From Palaeococcus pacificus DY20341 (lineage in GTDB: Archaea > Methanobacteriota_B > Thermococci > Thermococcales > Thermococcaceae), in the NCBI RefSeq assembly GCF_000725425.1, contig NZ_CP006019.1, positions 1,302,001 through 1,366,000 on the forward strand: 64,000 bases of DNA, read 5' to 3'. Below the pieces are notes generated by a model, which was not told where the DNA came from, did not search any database, and was given only the letters and a program-made list of their open reading frames with translations. Below, piece by piece: positions 19,651 through 30,043 of the stretch; positions within the stretch are counted from its first letter, which is position 1, and each line of letters opens with the position of its first letter. The position numbers and the translations under genes were made by a program.

Positions 19651-19998
19651 CTAGCTACCACGTAGTTGTGTTTGATTATCATCCAGTCTTCTTGTTAGTA
19701 TTGCATGAATTCCCAAGCCTGTGGAGATGCCCCATAACGTTCCAAGGAGAGAGCCAGAGTTAGATTATCTGTTACTACCCATGCTGGAAGGACATAGAGC
19801 GGAAAGCTAACTGCAAGGCTCTTCATAGCTTTCTCCTTTGGAAACAACGCTTTTTTCCAGTGAAGTGTAATGAATCCAATAATATACGCAGTGATTATGA
19901 ATTGTGGGATTAAATATTTTGCAAAGATAAAACGTGCTTGTTATTGAGGTAAAAAACATAAAAGCAGGGATTGCAAATCTATCCTTAAATACTTGCAT
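19651..19998 (-). pseudogene. Broken multi-TM partner gene of cassette 4
   Basis: Start ATG 19998 has GGAGGTGA 8 nt upstream, inside the end of cassette 4. Reading frames must be joined at two points: QVFKDRFAIPAFMFFTSIT, then AKYLIPQFIITAYIIGF to LPAWVVTDNLTLALSL, then GTLWGISTGLGIHAILTRRL ending DDNQTQLRGS. Together they give a protein of about 115 residues with three to four TM helices and a charged tail, like the other partners. The two frameshifts mark it as a decayed membrane partner gene. Confidence 0.6.
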
Positions 19999-20003
19999 TT
20001 GCA

Positions 20004-20682
20004 TCACCTCCAACTATATGCACGTCTAATAAAATCTGCAATAACTGGAGTTAATTCTGAAAGTCCTTTAATTACCTTGCCCGCCTTGATAAGTTTTGCT
20101 GAGATAATGATGGCTTTAACCTCTCCTCCAATGAGGACGAAGTTAGTACCAACGTCCACTATCACGTCCTTGTTATCCTGTTTATGTTTATTACATCGAG
20201 TCCGGTGAATATAAAGTCGTTTCCATTCTGCGGGGATATTGCATACTTCAGCGATATCGGGACGTAGTCCCCAAACAAGTCTTTTTCGAGCGTTATGAGT
20301 CCTGTTCGCGCGGTATTCTTGAAAACTATCATAGCAGTTTCAGAGCTCTGTATTACGCTGGGATACTCAATCGTCCACGAGGAGCCAAGGACCGCGTAAA
20401 GTCAGGGTTGTCGGTATGCCACTCATTAACACTCAAAGAGTTCAAGAGGACATTTTCTTGCGCAGGATTATAAACAAATGCCTTGCACACTAATGTGGCC
20501 TTGTATTCTATACCGTTCCAGTTGAATTCAGGGTCATCACACTCAAAGCTCACTTGCTTCAACTCGGTTCCATTCATTGCTTTCACTTCCACCTTCACTT
20601 CGCTCCAGTGTTCTTCTCCTGCTCCGTTTGGTTCACCATCATAATTGTCGAGGAAGAGCTTGTAAGTATATTTTCTTCTCAT
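20004..20682 (-). pseudogene. Cassette 4: 5'-truncated C-terminal module of the large secreted protein, two frameshifts
   Basis: Begins at the stop of the preceding membrane gene with KLFLDNYDG and NGAGEEHWSEVKVEVK, the same junction sequence as in the full-length gene, then diverges (FECDDPEFNWNG, TLVCKAF). Two frameshifts follow: near 20390 (continuing WTIEYPSVIQSSETAM) and near 20180 (continuing DVIVDVGTNFVLIGGE). The end is a hydrophobic, Lys-containing helix-like tail (KAIIISAKLIKAGKVIKG) and YSWR. No signal peptide and no own promoter seen. Non-functional as it stands. Confidence 0.7.
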
Positions 20683-21209
20683 GACTCTTCTTTATTCCTT
20701 ACGTTCTGTAAGATTTTAATTTCGTTCTGCAACCATAATGTAATTATACCATACACTACGGCAATTGGGGTTCTGTAGAGTATTACGAATAAGAGAGTTG
20801 GGAGATAAAGGAGCATTAGACATAATGCCCTTAAGCTCTTGCATGCATTCTTAAGGTAATACCAGAGGAGAAACCAGATTAAAATACCAAAAGCCCCATA
20901 TCCTGGATGTTTAAAGAGCAACGTCGCTGAAAAACCAAGAAATGGAATGGAAGCCAAAGCACCACTGTTTTCAATATCTCTTCTGGTTATGCCAATTACA
21001 TTTCTCCTAATACTGATCAGAGCAGTCCCAAGCCATAGCATAAAGGAAGCGACAAGTGGCCAAAGTGCTCCTATTGAGTTCGAGCGTAGAGCAATGTATC
21101 CAGACACCATAAGAATCGCAAGACAAGCAATAGCCTGCCGTGAAGATACAATAGCAAGTGACGCTATGACAACCCACAAAAAAATAGAAACAGCAAGGGA
21201 AATATCCAT
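20679..21209 (-). CDS. Multi-TM membrane protein, partner of cassette 3 (candidate immunity protein)
   Basis: 176 residues with about six TM helices and a short charged C-terminal helix (NEIKILQNVRNKEES). GGGGGGATGAG supplies the ribosome-binding site, and the start is only 3 bp after the stop of cassette 3. This spacing is repeated at every cassette of the locus. No similarity to known transporters is evident. By position and topology it is a candidate inner partner or immunity protein for the cassette 3 product; inference only. Confidence 0.75.
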   Translation of the reverse strand: MDISLAVSIFLWVVIASLAIVSSRQAIACLAILMVSGYIALRSNSIGALWPLVASFMLWLGTALISIRRNVIGITRRDIENSGALASIPFLGFSATLLFKHPGYGAFGILIWFLLWYYLKNACKSLRALCLMLLYLPTLLFVILYRTPIAVVYGIITLWLQNEIKILQNVRNKEES

Positions 21210-21212
21210 TTC

Positions 21213-22244
21213 TCATCCCCCCACCACAGCATTATTGTCGTTTTCTTGTGAAAATCCATTCACACCCCATTCAAATATCCACTGGATCTCTGAAGCGGCT
21301 TTTCCGAGCTTTGGAAGACTTGTTAATGCAAATGCAATCCAGCCCACAGGGTTACTGCCCTCAACAACAAGCTGTGCTGTGGATATTATTTCCCCTGCGG
21401 TTGAACCGTAATCTATTGCCTTTTCCGTCTCACTCCTCGTGTCCTTGTAAATTATCGTTATCACATCTGAAACTGGATAATTCAGTTCACTAAACTTTGT
21501 TTTAATTAAGTATGAGTGACCAGCAAACTTATCAATGTAAGTTCTGTAAACGGGCTTTCCAAAGTAGTAGTTCGCCAGCTCGTCGTTTATATCTATGGTT
21601 ATCGTTAAATCCTCCTGCATGTTTGTTGGAGTTAGGGTTATGGTTTGCTTGTTAACCGTGACACTGCTCGGGCCGTCAGGCCACACCCTCTTCCTCCCAA
21701 ACTCAACCTCCACTAAGTTACGCCTTACTGTATCAGCACTCTTTAACTCAAGGTGAACAGTACAAGTTGTCGACTCGTCCAGAGGAACAATTACAGGCTC
21801 GCACTCCATACTTGCAATCACATTACCCACAGACTTTACCTCCACCCTCACCTCGCTCCAGTGTTCTTCTCCTGCTCCGTTAGGTTTGCCGTCGTAATTG
21901 TCGAGGAAGAGCTTGAAAGTGTGGTTGCCAATACCATAAACGTCCAGACTGAAGGCTGTTAGAGTGTAGTTCTGAGCGTTGGCCGGGAGCCTGCCAGCAA
22001 AACCATCAATGCGCTTTACCACCGCACCATCTTCATCCTCAACGAAACCGCTAAGTGGAATAGCCGTGTTTCCATAATTCCACGCTTTGATGGTAAAGTA
22101 CACCGTCCCACCACCCTCAAGCTCAGTCGGATACGCAGTTAAAACAACGTTAAAGGAACTGCTGGGAGTTCCAGTTACGGTTATTCCACTGCTCCTTGAT
22201 GCCTCCAGCTTTCTACCTTTCCACTCCTGTCCTCCAGTTGTCCT
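21213..22244 (-). pseudogene. Cassette 3: 5'-truncated C-terminal module, intact reading frame
   Basis: Open frame of 344 codons including the stop, starting after a TGA at 22245-22247, without a proper start or signal peptide. Homology to the full gene begins around KLEASRS, covers the whole Ig-like domain (AYPTELEGGGTVYF to GAGEEHWSEV) and is nearly identical in DNA; after EHWSEVRVEVK it diverges. The variable part keeps weak similarity to that of the full gene (VWPDGPSSVT, FAGHSYLI) and ends in a hydrophobic segment (NPVGWIAFALTSLPKLGKAA) and NAVVGG. Internal ATG 22103 could start a cytosolic fragment. Confidence 0.75.
21853..22111 (-). repeat. Direct repeat copy A: 259 bp identical to 27471-27729
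   Basis: Every base from 21853 to 22111 matches 27471-27729 with a constant offset of 5618. Mismatches occur just outside at 21847, 21852 and 22112, and divergence rises quickly beyond 22130. The tract encodes the Ig-like domain preceding the variable region. Confidence 0.9.
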
Positions 22245-22283
22245 TCAATTTTCGGTCTAAATCTCCCAGGTAATGTTCGCTTT

Positions 22284-22520
22284 TTAGACCTTTTTACGGC
22301 ATCTTAACCGTTCTTCTAGCTCTTTAGATGTCAAATACTCAATTTTCTTAGATTTTCCAATGATATATGGCTCTTTTCTCTGATCTCCATACTTCAGTAT
22401 CACCATGTACGCAACTAGTAAAATTACAAATCCTATGAAGTCTATGATGCTAATCCTTTCCTGGATAATCACAGTAAGAACATAAAAACAAAATAGTATT
22501 GCCCAATATCGAGTCTTCAC
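22284..22520 (-). CDS. Small membrane protein, partner of cassette 2 (candidate immunity protein)
   Basis: 78 residues from GTG 22520, chosen because GGGGTGAT lies 4 nt upstream as in neighbouring partner genes; ATG 22526 is the alternative. Two TM helices (AILFCFYVLTVII and IDFIGFVILLVAYMVIL) are followed by a charged helix (SKELEERLRCRKK). If the A-run frameshift of cassette 2 is corrected, the start falls 5 bp after its stop. Function unknown. Confidence 0.65.
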   Translation of the reverse strand: MKTRYWAILFCFYVLTVIIQERISIIDFIGFVILLVAYMVILKYGDQRKEPYIIGKSKKIEYLTSKELEERLRCRKKV

Positions 22521-23387
22521 GAGCATCACCCCAACAGCCAATCCCATATTTTTTTGAGAGTTTCTTTACTGCAATCTTGGCTCCGTTTTTGGTTATTTCC
22601 ATTTCAATAGCCATAAAGCCGGTTATTACCTCTGCGCTCGTCCGTGCGACATATAAGTAAAATAACACTGTCCGTTTTTCAACGTACTCGTCGTATTTGA
22701 CTGTGATAACTTCTTTCTCGCTTTGTGTTAGTGCTTCTGTTGTTGGCATAAAGTTTATTGCCTTGTAAATCTTTAGACTAATCGTGTGGTTCTTGGGCAA
22801 GTGGTAGATCCTTGTCGAGTTGTAGCATACTCCACGCTGACATACAGCTCTGCCGCTTTCCTCAACAGTACGAACAAAGCTCAATGCAGTTGCTGATGGT
22901 TCATACATAATTTGAGCCAGTCCATCGCTGAACTTAACCTCATACTGTAGATTTATTGAGGAATTTATTGGTAACGTTCTTATATTAAGCCAAAAGGTCT
23001 CGATGTCATCAATCACAACTCTTGGGGCTATTTGGATTTCTGGACCTTTATTTTGTATAGTAACGGTACAAGAAACCTTGTCCCTGTCCAGTCTCCATTC
23101 ATACAGCCCAACTTCTTTTGGCATACAAGCGAAGTCTGTAATTTCCAAGTTTGCATTGATTGTGTTGGATCCACTTTTCTGACTATCTCCGTTGGAGTTA
23201 ACCCTGATGCTTCCGCTCTTCGATGCTTCTAACTTCTCACTTTCCCATACCTCAATTCTCCACTCATGCTCTCCTGCAACGGCAGCCCACGTTAAAGTAA
23301 CCATTCCTGTGCCCCCACTACCAATCGTGATAGTTTTACTGTCCTGTTTAAGAGTACTGTTTAGTTCTTTCTGACTCTCTGATGACG
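22450..23387 (-). pseudogene. Cassette 2: 5'-truncated C-terminal module with a probable frameshift
   Basis: Homology to the full-length gene begins abruptly at SKTITIGSGG (about 23340) and ends after KLEASKSGSIRV, earlier than in cassettes 1, 3 and 4. A distinct beta-rich region with paired Cys follows (FACMPKEVG, VSCTVTIQN, VCQRGVCYN), then a hydrophobic segment (AEVITGFMAIEMEITKNG) and KKLSKK. At a run of seven A (minus strand, about 22549-22555) one extra A would give IWDWLLG and a stop just before the partner gene; as written the frame runs into that gene to 22450. Confidence 0.7.
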
Positions 23388-23603
23388 TTACCGTCGTCTT
23401 TCTACTTCTTGCTTTAATAATTGAACCCGTCTGTTTATGTTGGATTTTAGTTCGTCAACATCATCGAAGAGCGCCCAAGCGAATGCCCAGGGTATCATAA
23501 AAACCGAAATTAGTGCAATAAGCCATCCATAAACGTCCGCCTCGAGGAGCATAGGAAAGAACATTACTCCCAAAATGGTAGGCATCACGCGATCAGCTCT
23601 CAT
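23388..23603 (-). CDS. Small two-TM protein with coiled-coil tail
   Basis: 71 residues. Hydrophobic stretches at about 8-20 and 26-44 (LIALISVFMIPWAFAWAL), then a charged helix (DELKSNINRRVQLLKQEVE). Start ATG 23603 overlaps the upstream stop by ATGA. Last gene of a bank of partner-like genes; cassette 2 begins directly after its stop. Function unknown; resembles the membrane partners by layout. Confidence 0.7.
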   Translation of the reverse strand: MRADRVMPTILGVMFFPMLLEADVYGWLIALISVFMIPWAFAWALFDDVDELKSNINRRVQLLKQEVERRR

Positions 23604-23872
23604 AATTCACCCTCCAGTGCTTTAATTTTCTCCTTGAGATGTCCAAGGCTCTCATTTTCGGAATAAGCTAACATTCCATACATTAAGAGTGGCGCTAAGA
23701 GGAGCAGTGAGTATCCTAGGGATATCCAAGAGACCACGAGCGCTGAAATGCTGTAAAGCGTCATGAAAATTAGTTCTCCAGCACTGGGGCGTGTCTTAAG
23801 GGCTATCTCTATTATTAAAACTATGTACATCAGTGCCACGATTGAGTTCCAGAGTGGGATGTAATTAATCAT
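23600..23872 (-). CDS. Small multi-TM protein with coiled-coil tail
   Basis: 90 residues. Three hydrophobic segments (about 8-24, 32-50 and 52-68) precede a charged helix (SLGHLKEKIKALEGEL). ATG 23872 has GGAGGGAGG upstream and overlaps the stop of the 50-residue ORF by 8 bp. Start chosen over an in-frame upstream ATG at 23938, which lacks a site and would overlap that ORF fully. Confidence 0.68.
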   Translation of the reverse strand: MINYIPLWNSIVALMYIVLIIEIALKTRPSAGELIFMTLYSISALVVSWISLGYSLLLLAPLLMYGMLAYSENESLGHLKEKIKALEGEL

Positions 23873-24017
23873 TTGCCTCCCTCCTAACGCGGTCTTCGAG
23901 CTGTAATAGTCTGTGATTGATTTCTTTGAACTCTCCAAGGAGCCTGCAGCGGAAGAAGTACATTAAAAAGAAATAAAAGATCCAAGGGAGCACCATCAGT
24001 AAGTATGCGTCGGACAT
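23865..24017 (-). CDS. Small one-TM protein with coiled-coil tail (50 aa)
   Basis: 50 residues, with GGTGAT 3 nt before ATG 24017. One TM helix (YLLMVLPWIFYFFLMYFF, 5-22) then a charged helical tail (FKEINHRLLQLEDRVRREAN). The tail resembles the C-terminal coils of its neighbours. Overlaps the next gene by 8 bp, so the two are coupled and could act as two chains of one membrane complex. Confidence 0.65.
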   Translation of the reverse strand: MSDAYLLMVLPWIFYFFLMYFFRCRLLGEFKEINHRLLQLEDRVRREAND

Positions 24018-24041
24018 GGGATCACCCCGGGTTCTACTGTT

Positions 24042-24453
24042 CTAGGCTTTATTTCTCAAACTTGAGTCTTTATCATTGTACTCTAATCGTCTTGCAATTT
24101 CTGAGAATTCCTTTTTCAGCATCCTCTTGACGAACAGGCAATAAAGCATGAAAACTATTCCAAACGTTATCACAGTTCCATCCAGCAAAAATCCTAATGT
24201 TGTAGCGAAGATTAGAATGTACCCAGCATAAATCTCTAGAGGATCCCATGGACTCCCGTAACCCCAACAAATCCCTTATTTTCTCCAGCTCTTTATCAAA
24301 TCTGTACTCTGCAACTATTGCCAAAAACACGATCGTTGCTCCAAAGTATACTGCCTCCTTCGAATAGATATACATTAAAAGAGAGGAAAGAGAAATAAAA
24401 ATTACCGGAATTTCCAACTGCCAGACTCTTTTCATATTTAACTCCCTCGACAT
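24042..24453 (-). pseudogene. Frameshifted four-TM partner-like gene
   Basis: The first frame encodes two TM helices and the charged coil RFDKELEKIRDLLGLRES. After a shift near 24235 a second frame continues with IYAGYILIFATTLGFLLDG, another TM helix, and the coil RMLKKEFSEIARRLEYNDKD to a stop at 24042. Without the shift, translation runs to 24073 with low-quality sequence (DLCWVHSNLR). The rebuilt protein (about 136 residues) has the same 2TM-coil-2TM-coil plan as the partner of cassette 1. GGAGG precedes ATG 24453. Confidence 0.65.
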
Positions 24454-24483
24454 ATTTCCTCCAGAACTTTTTTCATATCAGAC

Positions 24484-24960
24484 TTAATTGTCCGATTTAG
24501 TCTCTGTCAGATATTGTTTATCATTGTTTGGAACTTTTGCCTTTCTGTTCTTTACGAATCTAAATATTATCTCACTTGCAAATATCAATATCCCTGCAGA
24601 CATAAAACATACTCCGTAGTTTTTCTCCAAAGCTATTCCTGCCAGACATAATAGAGGGGCTGAGAACATTCCAATCACTGCTAGGATAACCCATGGAGCG
24701 GTACTCTTCTTTAAGTAGTACTTCTGGAATTCGTGGGATTTTTGTTTTTCTTCGATATACGTTAAGAGTGGGACTAGCATAACTACAAAGATGTGTGGAT
24801 AACCATGGATCCACCATACTCCCACTGAGAGGATATAGCTCACCAATGCAACTAGCTCTTTGAATCTCTGAGTGCGTTGGGAAGTGATTGCAAGGGCAAA
24901 AAACAGAATTGAAGAGATAAAGGAAAGTACTATGGGTGGAATGTCCAGTAGAGTACTCAT
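24484..24960 (-). CDS. Multi-TM membrane protein of the partner bank
   Basis: 158 residues from ATG 24960 (GGTGAT 6 nt upstream; TTG 24966 is the alternative). About five TM helices, with a charged linker after the third (IEEKQKSHEFQKYYLKKS) and a charged tail. No cassette precedes it directly: 190 bp upstream hold only a 41-codon ORF and a perfect hairpin. Candidate orphan immunity-like protein; function unknown. Confidence 0.7.
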   Translation of the reverse strand: MSTLLDIPPIVLSFISSILFFALAITSQRTQRFKELVALVSYILSVGVWWIHGYPHIFVVMLVPLLTYIEEKQKSHEFQKYYLKKSTAPWVILAVIGMFSAPLLCLAGIALEKNYGVCFMSAGILIFASEIIFRFVKNRKAKVPNNDKQYLTETKSDN

Positions 24961-25007
24961 TAACAATCACCACCCGATATATCTTTTTATTATTGACTTG
25001 ACACTCT

Positions 25008-25033
25008 CAGTGATCTAGAGTAATAGATCACTG
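25008..25033. repeat. Perfect 10-bp inverted repeat
   Basis: CAGTGATCTA, a 6-base spacer GAGTAA, then TAGATCACTG. It lies about 50 bp upstream of ATG 24960 and just past the stop of the 41-codon ORF. It could be an operator, a hairpin in the message or a recombination scar. No T-run follows, so it is not a classical terminator. Confidence 0.6.
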
Positions 25034-25153
25034 CAGTCCAGGAATGCAGTCTGAATGCACTTCCATCAAACCACAATCACCTTTAAACTTGCTTGGAACC
25101 GAGAGGATAATTTTCCAAGGCCCTATTTGGAAGCTTCTGTGGTAGATGTGCAT
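25028..25153 (-). CDS. Possible 41-residue protein
   Basis: ATG 25153 lies 4 bp upstream of the cassette 1 partner's stop, with a weak GTGAG site. The translation (GPWKIILSVPSKFKGDCG, MEVHSDCIPGLQ) has two Cys and no TM segment. It could be a small gene or a scrap of a cassette. Its stop falls in the right arm of the inverted repeat. Confidence 0.25.
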   Translation of the reverse strand: MHIYHRSFQIGPWKIILSVPSKFKGDCGLMEVHSDCIPGLQ

Positions 25154-25157
25154 TCTC

Positions 25158-25523
25158 TCACTCTTGCTGATTTGGATACCTTAAACTATTTCTAATGTGG
25201 ATAATTTCTTGTTTGATTTGCCATCTCTCAATTAAAGAGTACAACAACACGAGAGCAATAAAGTCTCTTGGGCTTCCACTCATAGCAAAGGATATTGCAA
25301 CAATCCCCACCAAAATATACCTAACCACTACTTCTCCGGGATCCTGATCAATATTTCCGATGTTAAGCTTCTTTTTGAGATTTTGAATTTCATTTTTAAC
25401 CGGATAAAAAGCTGAGAGAAATGCAAATAAAATAAAGGATAAAAAATGAATCTCCTGCCCACTAAAGGCATATGCTAGTAGTGATAGTACTGAAATTCCC
25501 GTTGGGATAGTATCAAACTTCAT
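25158..25523 (-). CDS. Four-TM membrane protein, partner of cassette 1 (candidate immunity protein)
   Basis: 121 residues from ATG 25523, which lies 5 bp after the stop of cassette 1 (GGAGGGTGATGCAC, then the ATG). Two TM helices (about 6-35), a charged coil (KNEIQNLKKKL), two further TM helices (VVRYILVGIVAISFAM; DFIALVLLYSLI) and a final charged helix (RWQIKQEIIHIRNSLR). The plan matches the rebuilt gene at 24042-24453. Function unknown. Confidence 0.72.
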   Translation of the reverse strand: MKFDTIPTGISVLSLLAYAFSGQEIHFLSFILFAFLSAFYPVKNEIQNLKKKLNIGNIDQDPGEVVVRYILVGIVAISFAMSGSPRDFIALVLLYSLIERWQIKQEIIHIRNSLRYPNQQE

Positions 25524-25528
25524 GTGCA

Positions 25529-26272
25529 TCACCCTCCAAAATTAATCTCTTTCCAAATACTTTGACCAATACTTTTAACAAACAGAAATACTTGGATAAT
25601 TGTTTTTACTGGTTTTGGGGCTGGAGTCATTTCAACTATCACAGTTCCCATATATTCTACTGGGGCATATGCCAATCCCAAAGGTGCAATTATCATTAAT
25701 GCCCCCTTTTTGATACCACCATTAGCATCCTCGTTCCAGTATTTGCTTCCTGTGTATCTTGCCGTGATTATTCCTTCAAGGTTCATGTACTCACCTGAGT
25801 CTAATCTTATTTTCAGTTTTAGGTAGTGTGGGGTATCAACTCTTTCTAGCGTGTAGTGGCAGTCTCCGTTTTCACACACCCATGTGTTGGTTTTGGGAGT
25901 TAAATCCCTTACGTCGTTAAGCTCAAGAGCCTTAGCCATTTTCTCGTCCAGTGGAACGTAAACTTCGGCAATTTTTCCAGTAAACTGGCTGGGTATAACG
26001 TCCTTCACCATTGTTACGCTTATTACACTGGAAGTGTCCATGTCATCATCAAGCAATTTAGTCACTACCGAATAACCCACAGCCGTTGATAGAGTGTTCT
26101 TCCTAACTACTACCTCACAGACTCCAGCTTCTCCCAGCAATATCGGTTGCTCTGGACAGTTCAAACCGAACACCAGCCCTTTCAGTGGTTTTACTCCCAC
26201 CTTCACCTCGCTCCAGTGTTCTTTTTCCGTTTCATACAGTTTCAGTCGTAGTCTTTTGAGGGAGCTTATGCT
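25529..26272 (-). pseudogene. Cassette 1: 5'-truncated C-terminal module, intact reading frame
   Basis: Open from the codon after TAA (26273-26275) to a stop at 25529. Homology to the full gene is restricted to the junction EHWSEVKVGVK; upstream only KLYETEK remains. The variable region has a paired-Cys beta part (LNCPEQPILLGEAGVCEV, WVCENGDCHY) and a long hydrophobic tail (KKGALMIIAPLGLAYAPVEY, IIQVFLFVKSIGQSI) ending NFGG. Internal ATG 26206 could start 225 residues, but there is no signal peptide. Confidence 0.72.
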
Positions 26273-26286
26273 TTAGTTAATGCCTT

Positions 26287-26793
26287 TTACTTTGCATAAG
26301 ATACTAAATCATGTTTCAGTACTAAGTATGTCCATAAACTAAGGAGTGCAAATATCGTGGGTTCTAGAATGCTTTTTGTAGTTATAAGAATCAAAACTGA
26401 AAGTACTAACGATACAACTAACAGCCCGTGCTCTGATATTTTATCAACTATCTTCCAAATTGTCACATATATGAAGGCTCCCACAATAAAGAAAATCATA
26501 AGATTCCTGCTAAAATCTGTCATTGTAGAATAAGCAAGAATTGTAGGCAATAGAAAACCTACTACCACTAAATCTGAGATTACAAGGGTCTTGACAAATC
26601 TTGTATTCCCATGTGCACTCCATTTGTGGTGATAGTGGTGGATTTCAAGTCTAATCGCTGAATAAGCTACTAAATATCCTACAGCATAAATCAACATCTG
26701 AGAATTCTCGTTCAGGAATCCATATAGGAGACTACCAAAAATTAAAATTGGAAGATAAAACGTCAAAATATTGTGAACGCGGACTTTGTTCAT
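26287..26793 (-). CDS. Multi-TM membrane protein, partner of the full-length secreted protein (candidate immunity protein)
   Basis: 168 residues from ATG 26793, 4 bp after the stop of the large gene, with GGGGTGATATC as ribosome-binding site. Five to six TM helices in pairs separated by charged loops (RLEIHHYHHKWSAH; KIVDKISEHG). The His-rich loop is distinctive. Being the cognate neighbour of the only complete effector-like gene, it is the strongest immunity candidate of the locus. Confidence 0.78.
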   Translation of the reverse strand: MNKVRVHNILTFYLPILIFGSLLYGFLNENSQMLIYAVGYLVAYSAIRLEIHHYHHKWSAHGNTRFVKTLVISDLVVVGFLLPTILAYSTMTDFSRNLMIFFIVGAFIYVTIWKIVDKISEHGLLVVSLVLSVLILITTKSILEPTIFALLSLWTYLVLKHDLVSYAK

Positions 26794-26797
26794 GATA

Positions 26798-29700
26798 TCA
26801 CCCCACAAAACCATCGTTATCAAAATCCCTCGGTTGTTTCCATCCATAGAAATATGCCTCCTCCGTTATGTCCGCTAGGAAGAGCAGTAGTCCAGCGTAT
26901 CCGAATAGTCTAGATCCAAAAACCGCCAATTGTCCGGATCCTGTTGCCTCGGTTGTTATGTATCCTGCCTTTTCAAGTATCTCTGTCACTACAAATGTTC
27001 CTGAACCGCCGTATTCAACTGCATCTTCAATCGTGGTGCCACTATTCTTTAGTATCTGGAATGTCGTGCTTATTGGTGGCGCATTCTCAAAGTGTATCAC
27101 TATCTCCCAAGGTTGCTCCGTGGCAAGTTTATCCACATAAGAATGCCATGGGAAGAGGGGATCGATCCCAAAGTAAAACTCTGCAAAGTTTTCATCTATC
27201 GTAATCTTGATGTGAGTCTCGTCATCTGGATCATTTGGAGTCACTTTAAGAGTATCCTTTGACAACGTGACTTCTTTAAAATCGCTTGGCCAGACTTTTG
27301 CTCCCCCAACGTCGATTCCTGATATTTTGACTTGCACAGAGTCATCTGGATTTGTCCTTAGCAAGTACAAAGTGCAGTCAAGGTCGTCTACATCATTTTC
27401 ACCCAGCACAACTCCATCATCGCATTCCAACTTCAGATCTGCCTTCCAAGGTTTCACTTCCACCTTCACTTCGCTCCAGTGTTCTTCTCCTGCTCCGTTA
27501 GGTTTGCCGTCGTAATTGTCGAGGAAGAGCTTGAAAGTGTGGTTGCCAATACCATAAACGTCCAGACTGAAGGCTGTTAGAGTGTAGTTCTGAGCGTTGG
27601 CCGGGAGCCTGCCAGCAAAACCATCAATGCGCTTTACCACCGCACCATCTTCATCCTCAACGAAACCGCTAAGTGGAATAGCCGTGTTTCCATAATTCCA
27701 CGCTTTGATGGTAAAGTACACCGTCCCACTACCCTCAAGCTCAGTCGGGTAAGCGGTTAAAACAACGTTAAAGGAATCGCTGGGAGCTCCACCCACGGTT
27801 ATTCCACCGCTCCTCGATGCCTCCAGTTTTCCGCCCTCCCACACTTCTATCCTGTACTTGTGGGTTCCTGCAACGGCAGTCCACGTTAAGCTCACCACCC
27901 CAGAACCCCCACTGCCTATTGTGATAGTTTTACTCGCCTTTTCCGCATCATCAATGAAAAGTTTTACCATCACGCTCCGGGATCTAGAGACGGGGTTTTT
28001 GACGCTCACGTCAAAACTCACACTGTCTCCATGCGTTGGATTCGCTGGTGAAACGTCAACGCCAGTTATAGTTAAAGTTCCCGAAGTCACTGTAACACTT
28101 TTGCTGGCGCTCTTTGAATTGCCATTCCAGTAGATTGATGCATGGGCAACGTAAGTGCTGGCATCCTCGTAAGTTATTGTCTGTTCGAGCAGAGTAACCG
28201 CTCCATTTGCAGGAACGTTCACGGTATCAGAGTATGTCTTTGAATTAGTTGGCGAGAAAGGAATACTGATAGAGTACTCCACATCACTCAAAGGTGCGCT
28301 ATTCCCATTCTCCACGACAACCCTGTAAGTCACACTTTCGCCTTCAACAATCCTATCTCTTGAGGTTTCCATTCTAATGCTAACTTTGCTCCAGTCTATG
28401 GGAGATTCAAGGTTTATTGTCGAGGAGTATTCTCTCGTTATAGTCCTCTCCTGGCAGCTCGGCGAGGTGGAGAGTGTTTCGTGATTCTTTGAGAGGGGTA
28501 CTGCACCACAGGAGGGAGTGTAAGTGATTTCAACCTTTCCACTCACGGTGAGTTCACCATCCATGGAATGAGTTAGTGTGAACCTCTTGCTGTTCCAGGC
28601 GTAACTCTGACCTGAGTTGAGGAATGATAATGTTCCTGTATCAGAATCGCCGGTTGTGTAATCCTTAACGTTGATCCTAATGGTGTCGACTGCGTTGTTC
28701 TCCGCCTTGAACGAAATCTTAACGTGATACTCAACTTTTCCAGGCTGATTCTTGTCCACGATAACTTTAACTTCTGTAATCTTTAGCTGGCCAATGTTGC
28801 CCTGCGTGTCCAAGGCTTCCCTGATAATTTCAGGCTCTATCAACACTCCATTCACTTCTACTCCAAGATTTTCTTCGAAGGTTTGGGTGCCATCTACTGA
28901 ATAACCCTTTGGGGATACTGGTATTGGCGCTGGAATCCTGGGGTCGCCGGGTTTAATTGGAATGGGGGATTTTATGGGGCTTCTTTTAATTTCACTGGAA
29001 ATTATTAACACCTTCAATGCTTCCTTGAGCTCGGCAACTTTCTGATTGAGCATTGACTCCACTTTAGGATTATTGTTACCATAGTTTCTTGTTTTTATTA
29101 GGGCATATACGTTGCCCATGAGTTCATATGCCTTCAAAGCGTTCGGCCAGTAGTAGGTTGTCCTTTCAGTGATTATCTCTGTGGGCGTTATTTGAGTTGA
29201 TTTGAACGTAATGACGAGACCTCCATTTTTGATCCATCTAATGCTCTCAAGAGTGCCCTGTTTGCTGAGGATAGACTCTGTCCTATATAGCATAGAGGTT
29301 ACCTGTTCACCGCTAGATCCTGTGATGATCTTGTATGTTAAATCCTTCAGACTTTTTATGCCTACAGACATGTTCTTGTAGTCTTTCTGAGAGTACCTCA
29401 TGTAAAAGAGCGCCCATTCCTCTGCAAGTATAGGGTTTATCGCGATTCCGTGGTTTTCTTGTGGTGCTTCCCCTGCATTTGTCCACTTCCACTTTTCAAT
29501 CGCCCAAGTCTCGTATTCATTGTATTTGAAGGCGACGTTAATGAACGCCGTTGAGAATTCCTCTAGAAAGGCCGTCATATTAAAGTCTTCGGTAATTTGA
29601 TCAGCATTTTGGACAATGTAGTTTTGGAGGGCCTGGATTTCACTGTCACTCCAGCCCTGTTCTTTGAGAGTGCTGACGGTCTCTGCGGGTAGACCATTCT

Positions 29701-30043
29701 GTTTTATTTCTTCGGCTATGCTCCTGAGTTCTTGTGTGGTGTAGTAGGTTTTAACTCCTGATTGTTCGAGTTCTTTGAGGTTTTGCCAGATTAGTGCTGA
29801 TATTTGGACTGCGTTTTCTGCTCCTTTTTGGGAGTTTGTGATGAGTTCTCTGGCGGTGTTTTGGTCTGCTGTTTGATTGAGTTTGATTATGAGTTCTGCT
29901 TCTTTGTTGAGTATATTCCAGAATTCTTCGTAAGGCTGATTCTCGTTCTCGAGAGCGTTGACTGTGATCGTGGTGTTCTGGGCTGTGATAAAACTCAGGC
30001 TTAGGATGAGATAACTCAATACTAATATTAGTATTTTTCTCAT
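26798..30043 (-). CDS. Large secreted multi-domain protein with variable C-terminus (candidate polymorphic toxin or surface protein)
   Basis: 1081 residues from ATG 30043 (AAGGTGATAA upstream; the in-frame start at 30088 would bury the signal peptide). Signal peptide about 1-21 (ILILVLSYLILSLSFITAQ). Residues ~30-370 are helical. A Pro-rich linker (PIPIKPGDPRIPAPIPVSP) leads to several Ig/CARDB-like domains (~400-860), including VSPANPTHGDSVSF and the junction EHWSEVKVEVK at about 855. From there ~220 residues form the variable region: a Cys-containing beta part and a hydrophobic Gly-rich tail (GSRLFGYAGLLLFLADI) ending DNDGFVG. No C-terminal membrane anchor of the usual S-layer type. Family not recognised. 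Confidence 0.85.
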   Translation of the reverse strand: MRKILILVLSYLILSLSFITAQNTTITVNALENENQPYEEFWNILNKEAELIIKLNQTADQNTARELITNSQKGAENAVQISALIWQNLKELEQSGVKTYYTTQELRSIAEEIKQNGLPAETVSTLKEQGWSDSEIQALQNYIVQNADQITEDFNMTAFLEEFSTAFINVAFKYNEYETWAIEKWKWTNAGEAPQENHGIAINPILAEEWALFYMRYSQKDYKNMSVGIKSLKDLTYKIITGSSGEQVTSMLYRTESILSKQGTLESIRWIKNGGLVITFKSTQITPTEIITERTTYYWPNALKAYELMGNVYALIKTRNYGNNNPKVESMLNQKVAELKEALKVLIISSEIKRSPIKSPIPIKPGDPRIPAPIPVSPKGYSVDGTQTFEENLGVEVNGVLIEPEIIREALDTQGNIGQLKITEVKVIVDKNQPGKVEYHVKISFKAENNAVDTIRINVKDYTTGDSDTGTLSFLNSGQSYAWNSKRFTLTHSMDGELTVSGKVEITYTPSCGAVPLSKNHETLSTSPSCQERTITREYSSTINLESPIDWSKVSIRMETSRDRIVEGESVTYRVVVENGNSAPLSDVEYSISIPFSPTNSKTYSDTVNVPANGAVTLLEQTITYEDASTYVAHASIYWNGNSKSASKSVTVTSGTLTITGVDVSPANPTHGDSVSFDVSVKNPVSRSRSVMVKLFIDDAEKASKTITIGSGGSGVVSLTWTAVAGTHKYRIEVWEGGKLEASRSGGITVGGAPSDSFNVVLTAYPTELEGSGTVYFTIKAWNYGNTAIPLSGFVEDEDGAVVKRIDGFAGRLPANAQNYTLTAFSLDVYGIGNHTFKLFLDNYDGKPNGAGEEHWSEVKVEVKPWKADLKLECDDGVVLGENDVDDLDCTLYLLRTNPDDSVQVKISGIDVGGAKVWPSDFKEVTLSKDTLKVTPNDPDDETHIKITIDENFAEFYFGIDPLFPWHSYVDKLATEQPWEIVIHFENAPPISTTFQILKNSGTTIEDAVEYGGSGTFVVTEILEKAGYITTEATGSGQLAVFGSRLFGYAGLLLFLADITEEAYFYGWKQPRDFDNDGFVG
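27471..27729 (-). repeat. Direct repeat copy B: 259 bp identical to 21853-22111
   Basis: Copy within the full-length gene of the tract described at 21853-22111, in the same orientation, encoding the Ig-like domain and the first part of the junction. Confidence 0.9.

Follow-up and report, generated by a model that had tools for sequence, protein, structure and literature searches.

The window analysed here, a stretch of 64,000 nucleotides from the deep-sea archaeon Palaeococcus pacificus DY20341, carries on its minus strand, between about 19.5 and 30.1 kb, an island of VARTIG, the Thermococcales module (arCOG07710/arCOG14200) that Makarova et al. 2021 (PMC8416519) described. Read in the sense of the genes, a full-length Ig protein is followed by m1, Ig2, m2, m3, m4, m5, m6 and m7, and then by Ig3, m8, Ig4, m9 and the broken Ig5 and m10. 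As in other VARTIG modules, a large secreted multi-Ig protein heads the co-directed array (26798..30043, minus; 1081 aa, arCOG07710 type), with a signal-peptide-like N-terminus and a variable C-terminus beyond a junction, HWSEV; this gene may be PAP_07455, the example protein that Makarova et al. took from the same strain, and it is matched in 53 of the 94 Thermococcaceae genomes searched. Five bases past its stop codon starts m1 (26287..26793, minus), which has six hydrophobic segments and is the membrane protein that pairs with the tip of the full-length protein itself; genes of its cluster (19) lie directly behind intact cassettes 6 times in the comparison set. The short genes Ig2 to Ig5 are homologous to the C-terminal ~200 aa of the large protein, as is usual for VARTIG, and m1 to m9 correspond to its variable set of small genes, most of them with transmembrane (TM) segments. 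Ig2 (cassette 1; 25529..26206, minus) is headless and consists of a distal Ig-like domain and a tip, tip A, which lies at ~25529-25735 behind an ARYTGSKYW motif, with a junction remnant extending to 26260; its cognate membrane partner is m2 (25158..25523, minus). Further downstream, Ig3 (cassette 2; 22527..23380, minus) has its frame broken near the C-terminus at a run of seven A, where the neighbouring frame (22527-22560) reads ..KETLKKIWDWLLG, resembling the ..GKEFLKKVLDWLVG of L023_2; the genome was sequenced by 454 (PMC4574382), so this homopolymer break may be a sequencing error. Its partner m8 (22284..22547, minus) is intact, and a 57% identical gene stands behind the matching tip in locus L023. 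Ig4 (21213..22246, minus) is intact and shows the DNNxxxGG ending typical of VARTIG proteins (..DNNAVVGG), with m9 (20679..21209, minus) as its partner, and the array closes with Ig5 (20004..20682, minus), broken into several frames, and its broken partner m10 (19690..19998, minus).

Between m2 and Ig3 lies a bank of small membrane genes, m3 (24484..24960; 158 aa, four hydrophobic segments), m4 (24042..24453, in two frames), m5 (23865..24017; 50 aa, one TM), m6 (23600..23872; 90 aa, two to three TM) and m7 (23388..23603; 71 aa, two TM), all on the minus strand. The preliminary description had proposed five genes here, one of them frameshifted and none with an effector module of its own, and these points were borne out: all five are present (23388-24960), the two frames of m4 belong to a single paralogue of m2, and no effector module belongs to any of the five. 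Counting them as five independent genes does not hold, however, because m5, m6 and m7 behave as a single three-gene unit and the bank thus amounts to three units: m3, the probably dead m4 and the triad. Relatives of m5, m6 and m7, 55-80% identical and in the same order, occur in four other genomes, and m3 has an 86% identical relative in L062, also orphan, behind tip A and m2; conservation in the same order indicates that these are real genes and not chance ORFs. Estimates of dN/dS (NG86) were 0.07-0.59 for the triad in comparisons including the window copies, 0.23, 0.23 and 0.38 for m5, m6 and m7 against L071, where tip B (see below) is likewise missing, and 0.42 for m3 against L062, all of them values that show constraint but average over the whole path, the earlier paired phase included, and from which the orphan phase is not separable. 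Each half of m4 can be aligned with its counterpart in m2 (30% identity; E values of 9e-7 and 2e-8), which places the break inside a single m2 paralogue, so that m4 is probably dead, a relic unless its break is a 454 sequencing error.

The earlier idea of a shared plan, a TM hairpin or two followed by a charged helix, survives as an architecture, since all bank proteins have TM segments and a charged C-terminal tail, but m5 has a single TM and hence no hairpin, and homology among the proteins was undetectable by profiles. With hhalign, the m2 family against m3, m6 and m7, as well as m5 and m7 against m6, gave probabilities below 1% from shallow alignments, and a common origin of all the small membrane proteins is unsupported by the profile comparisons run, except for m4 with m2. 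The m2 protein is itself an internal duplication, (TM-TM-coil) x2, whose halves align with a score reached by none of 500 shuffles, and m4 has the same halves. The tails of the partner proteins are mostly charged and, judging the topology from this charge, probably cytoplasmic. Structure prediction (mean pLDDT of 34 for Ig2 and 52 for m2) offered at most four helices in m2 as a usable outcome. A scan for promoters and terminators, with a bacterial consensus applied to an archaeal host, stayed at chance level.

To place the bank in context, the 94 genomes were searched with the full-length VARTIG protein and 72 regions from other Thermococcaceae genomes (L022-L094 minus the window's own L093) were compared. 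Genes were called with a script of our own that draws on codon use together with homology and ribosome-binding sites and whose calls are imperfect (a complete tip B in L031 was missed). Ig cassettes were recognised through a domain ending in the junction HWSEVxVxVK together with similarity of the C-terminus. A TM gene lies directly behind 168 of the 176 C-terminally intact Ig cassettes, at a median gap of 4 bp and often overlapping. When cassettes of the same fine cluster were compared between different loci, the partner belonged to the same family in 327 of 409 pairs (shuffled mean 14, maximum 25), against 155 of 13378 between-locus pairs of different clusters, counts that are to be read as effect sizes because close loci are not independent. 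Partner identity follows the last 80 residues of the cassette, the tip, with a partial rank correlation of 0.62 over all families, compared with 0.08 for the Ig part. In this line, cassettes with Ig parts at least 60% identical had similar partners in 66 of 77 pairs when their tips were similar and in 2 of 53 when they were not. The P family, to which Ig2 belongs, illustrates the point, as its alignment is conserved as far as ARYTGSKYW and diverges after it: relative to L051, Ig2 is 48% identical in the Ig part, 75% in the tip and 76% in the partner, whereas relative to L042 the values are 67%, 27% and 9%, and between L071 and L031 they are 82%, 19% and 13%. The partner family therefore tracks the last ~80 residues and not the Ig domain. 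Two traits of polymorphic toxins are thus present, namely a conserved N-terminal body with an exchangeable C-terminal domain after a junction motif, and, immediately after every type of C-terminus, a partner gene specific to it. Tips are also more hydrophobic than what precedes them, 73% of them containing a hydrophobic segment above 1.2, versus 6% of the preceding Ig parts. As a separate observation, the partner set of the tip ending in ..YKSIWG (L042, 14684-15390; L062, 2747-3239) also comprises three genes, all tiny and with TM segments (37, 91 and 39-40 aa), so that the triad is not the sole case of a three-gene partner.

The relatives of the bank genes were then sought beside tips in other strains, the check that the preliminary description had proposed, and they were found there. 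In all 5 loci with tip A (..IGQSIWKEI), the gene behind it is m2, the intact paralogue of m4. Tip B (..LKPLFLPGG) is present in 3 of the 94 genomes (G004, G047 and G076), always directly before m5-m6-m7, and close relatives of the triad exist in five genomes, these three, that of the window and that of G002 (L071), from the same genus. Tip B was looked for in the last two genomes and is absent from both, and in both the triad sits behind tip A and m2. Diverged triads stand behind a diverged tip in L031 and L025, although the triads of L025 and L034 are 96-98% identical in DNA, recent copies that make such counts not fully independent. Regarding m3, tip E of L062 is directly followed by a gene 40% identical to it, so that the evidence beside a tip concerns this paralogue and not m3 itself; the block of L062 with tip A, m2 and the orphan m3 has 89-92% DNA identity to the window. 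Homologues of m2, m3 and m6 in unrelated contexts were searched for in the 94 Thermococcaceae genomes, and none convincing appeared outside VARTIG islands, the one marginal m2 match (E 5e-4), from a genome in which the VARTIG protein had no match, being probably due to chance. For m6 the search extended to 115 genomes of the class, with no match in members outside the Thermococcaceae.

Across the comparison set, 106 TM genes of partner families are preceded by a further TM gene and not by a cassette, with at least one such displaced gene in 44 loci, as compared with 57 loci holding an intact cassette. For 45 of the 106 a gene of the same family lies in between (tandem copies), while 36 are non-tandem and their cognate cassette is absent from the fetched region. 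The reverse is very rare: at most 2 intact cassettes (L028_19 and L034_19) have no TM partner, the remaining partnerless cassettes being broken frames or fragments. Moreover, of the 52 displaced genes preceded by 45 bp or more, 19 keep a tip remnant upstream, and this remnant is of the cognate type, the one paired with the gene's family in other places, in 17 of the 19 (shuffled mean 3.2, maximum 11 in 10,000). One of the 19, in L031, is a whole tip with an open frame, overlooked in gene calling. The set also includes 51 intact headless cassettes (under 180 aa), and three stages can be seen, a full-length tip with its partner, a headless tip with its partner, and a partner alone, as in the window and L071. 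In the window, m3 and m5 to m8 are open, and the tips that would face them are absent or broken, as for Ig3, which is broken near its end in front of an open m8. The island type thus shows another trait of polymorphic toxins, the presence downstream of orphans of both kinds, C-terminal cassettes and partner genes, and the decay of m4 indicates that orphan partners are not always kept.

Traces of exchange are visible in the island itself. A direct repeat links an arm in Ig4 (21835..22134, minus) with one in the full-length gene (27453..27752, minus), 98% identical over 300 nt and 94.6% over 390 nt, and both 300-nt arms end exactly at the HWSEV junction, before two different tips. This pair points to a recent exchange or duplication within the locus, of the kind that Makarova et al. 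reported not seeing, and L067 has a similar near-identical arm pair with different tips. A general homogenisation of exchange arms within loci was not significant (0.634 versus a shuffled mean of 0.577 and maximum of 0.669). The headless tips of L025, L034 and L062 start at or just before ARYTGSKYW. Two side observations belong here. A cassette of Thermococcus sp. JdFR-02 (L095:7863-8426, the same as L045_26) is chimeric: it starts like another family (VGNVIASMNCNPSLVPLD) and switches in frame to the P family (ERLASALGLDDVRDL), which directly records a recombination inside a cassette. L062 (485-5066) contains P-family tips in tandem, each with its own partner, in a series that resembles a record of displacement: first tip E with an m3-like gene, next tip D and its three genes, then tip A followed by m2, and finally the orphan m3.

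Altogether, we are confident that the bank genes are displaced cognate partners of Ig tips in a VARTIG island. That they are orphan immunity genes, as the preliminary description had suggested in speaking of spare immunity genes left after the loss of their toxins, is probable and in our opinion the best reading, and it gains support from the bank relatives adjoining polymorphic tips elsewhere, the absence of tip B here and the 17 cognate remnants out of 19. According to the mechanism that we propose, the secreted Ig surface protein carries an exchangeable C-terminal tip of ~60-100 residues, and each type has its own membrane partner, encoded only a few bases further on by one gene or by a set of three. 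A new block of tip plus partner would be recombined in behind conserved DNA, with HWSEV as the junction and ARYTGSKYW as a further site inside the P family; the old tip, severed from signal peptide and Ig body, would go undelivered and decay or be deleted, and its partner gene would stay downstream. The tip would be a membrane-acting effector directed at neighbouring Thermococcales, the partners would act as membrane immunity proteins, and the orphan ones might protect against tips that the cell makes no longer. Since the tips lack a recognisable toxin domain, immunity is a role that we infer for the partners: neither tips nor partners gave a sequence match to a known toxin or immunity family in Pfam, NCBIfam, PADLOC or the PDB (the PADLOC assignment of m2 to KwaA, E 0.001 and 16.6 bits, is weak and covers mostly membrane helices), and in the literature found we met no report of toxicity, delivery or protection for VARTIG. 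The combination of hydrophobic tips and membrane partners is best accommodated by a membrane-acting effector with membrane immunity, although the C-terminal hydrophobic segment of the tips could be a membrane anchor, which counts against a toxin.

Other explanations have to be weighed against this one. The small size of the bank genes and their lack of a family match would suit unrelated membrane ORFs that had been inserted into a gene-poor stretch or had arisen there by chance, but the conservation of order and sequence across genera, the constraint and the restriction to VARTIG islands refute such an origin, which we consider hardly conceivable. Only slightly better placed, and still very improbable, is the idea that m2 to m7 form a single multi-subunit partner of tip A: all of them stand behind this tip in the window, as do m2-m5-m6-m7 in L071, but it is contradicted by L045, L051 and L062, where tip A and m2 occur without m5-m7 and which reveal that the triad is no obligate part of the tip A set, and by the triad standing behind tip B in three genomes.

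Two further alternatives accept the pairing and reinterpret the partner. It might be a cognate factor for assembly, export or anchoring, holding the tip in the donor membrane, with the tipless genes as relics; strict matching and tight spacing would fit equally well, the tips are hydrophobic enough for anchors and m4 has decayed. A holder without its client, however, should decay as fast as the client, and partners without tips (106, in 44 loci) far outnumber tips without partners (at most 2), while the triad and m3 are open, with dN/dS below 0.6 between genomes where they are orphan; we regard this possibility as unlikely. Somewhat less likely still is that the partners are membrane receptors for the tips of kin, in adhesion or DNA exchange, so that spare copies widen the range of strains recognised. 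Such self/non-self recognition is hypothesis (iii) of Makarova et al. 2021 and also predicts specificity between tip and partner as well as a value for extra partners, but it leaves unexplained the near-absence of intact tips without a partner, expected if the tip harms unprotected cells, and most bank partners, being small TM proteins that end in a charged tail, have little chain that faces outwards. The asymmetry in the loss of tips and partners thus fits anchoring and recognition less well than immunity.

Returning to the reading of the bank as orphan immunity genes, its broadest form would make the VARTIG tips an undescribed group of archaeal membrane-acting contact toxins without a known toxin fold, in which a dedicated membrane protein or triad neutralises each tip, specificity resides in the last ~80 residues and blocks are exchanged at HWSEV and ARYTGSKYW, two nested sites. 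Cells would accumulate banks of orphan immunity genes against their neighbours, in the manner known from bacteria with T6SS, CDI and T7SS; for this whole proposal we see the chances as evenly balanced. The locus resembles the VARTIG systems already described in having a large Ig surface protein first and short Ig cassettes with membrane genes behind. Among the three hypotheses of Makarova et al. (PMC8416519) is a role as polymorphic toxins; these authors assigned the variability to the ~200 C-terminal residues, remarked that certain membrane clusters go with one and the same Ig branch and saw no sign of recombination within loci. New with respect to the main text of that work are the near-universal pairing of one tip with one partner and the confinement of specificity to the last ~80 residues, together with the arrays of orphan partners, the asymmetry in the loss of tips and partners, the cognate remnants and the near-identical exchange arms within a locus. 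The orphan banks, the cognate remnants, the one-sided loss of tips and the specificity residing in the tip alone favour the conflict hypothesis of VARTIG, one of three that had been published without a means of deciding among them, and concrete pairs, tip A with m2 and tip B with m5-m6-m7, are now testable.

Among bacterial systems, the T6SS of Vibrio cholerae offers a close parallel, as new effector-immunity modules displace old effectors while the immunity genes stay in 3′ arrays (Kirchberger 2017, PMC5361080). Displacement with retention of immunity genes is alike in both cases, but those arrays are bacterial and involve other effectors and another delivery, the VARTIG partners are membrane proteins facing tips whose toxicity is only presumed, and headless VARTIG tips, unlike the displaced effectors of V. 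cholerae, often persist as an intermediate. The TspA/TsaI pair of the Staphylococcus aureus T7SS, a polymorphic membrane-depolarising toxin with membrane immunity proteins clustered downstream (PMC9484751), comes nearest to the kind of effector proposed here; however, the TsaI copies form one family (DUF443, five TM), whereas the bank genes belong to several families with one to four TM and without a detectable common origin, and the VARTIG tips, unlike TspA, sit behind Ig domains. Finally, the orphan cdiA-CT/cdiI modules of CDI systems lack a start codon, begin at the junction motif, carry immunity genes behind and are possible donors for exchange (PMC9086364), in the same manner as headless VARTIG tips begin at a junction motif with partner genes behind, although VARTIG has no CdiB/CdiA and no VENN motif, its junctions being HWSEV and ARYTGSKYW. 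If the proposal is correct, archaea of hot vents would bear membrane toxins and orphan immunity arrays that follow a bacterial logic with unrelated parts.
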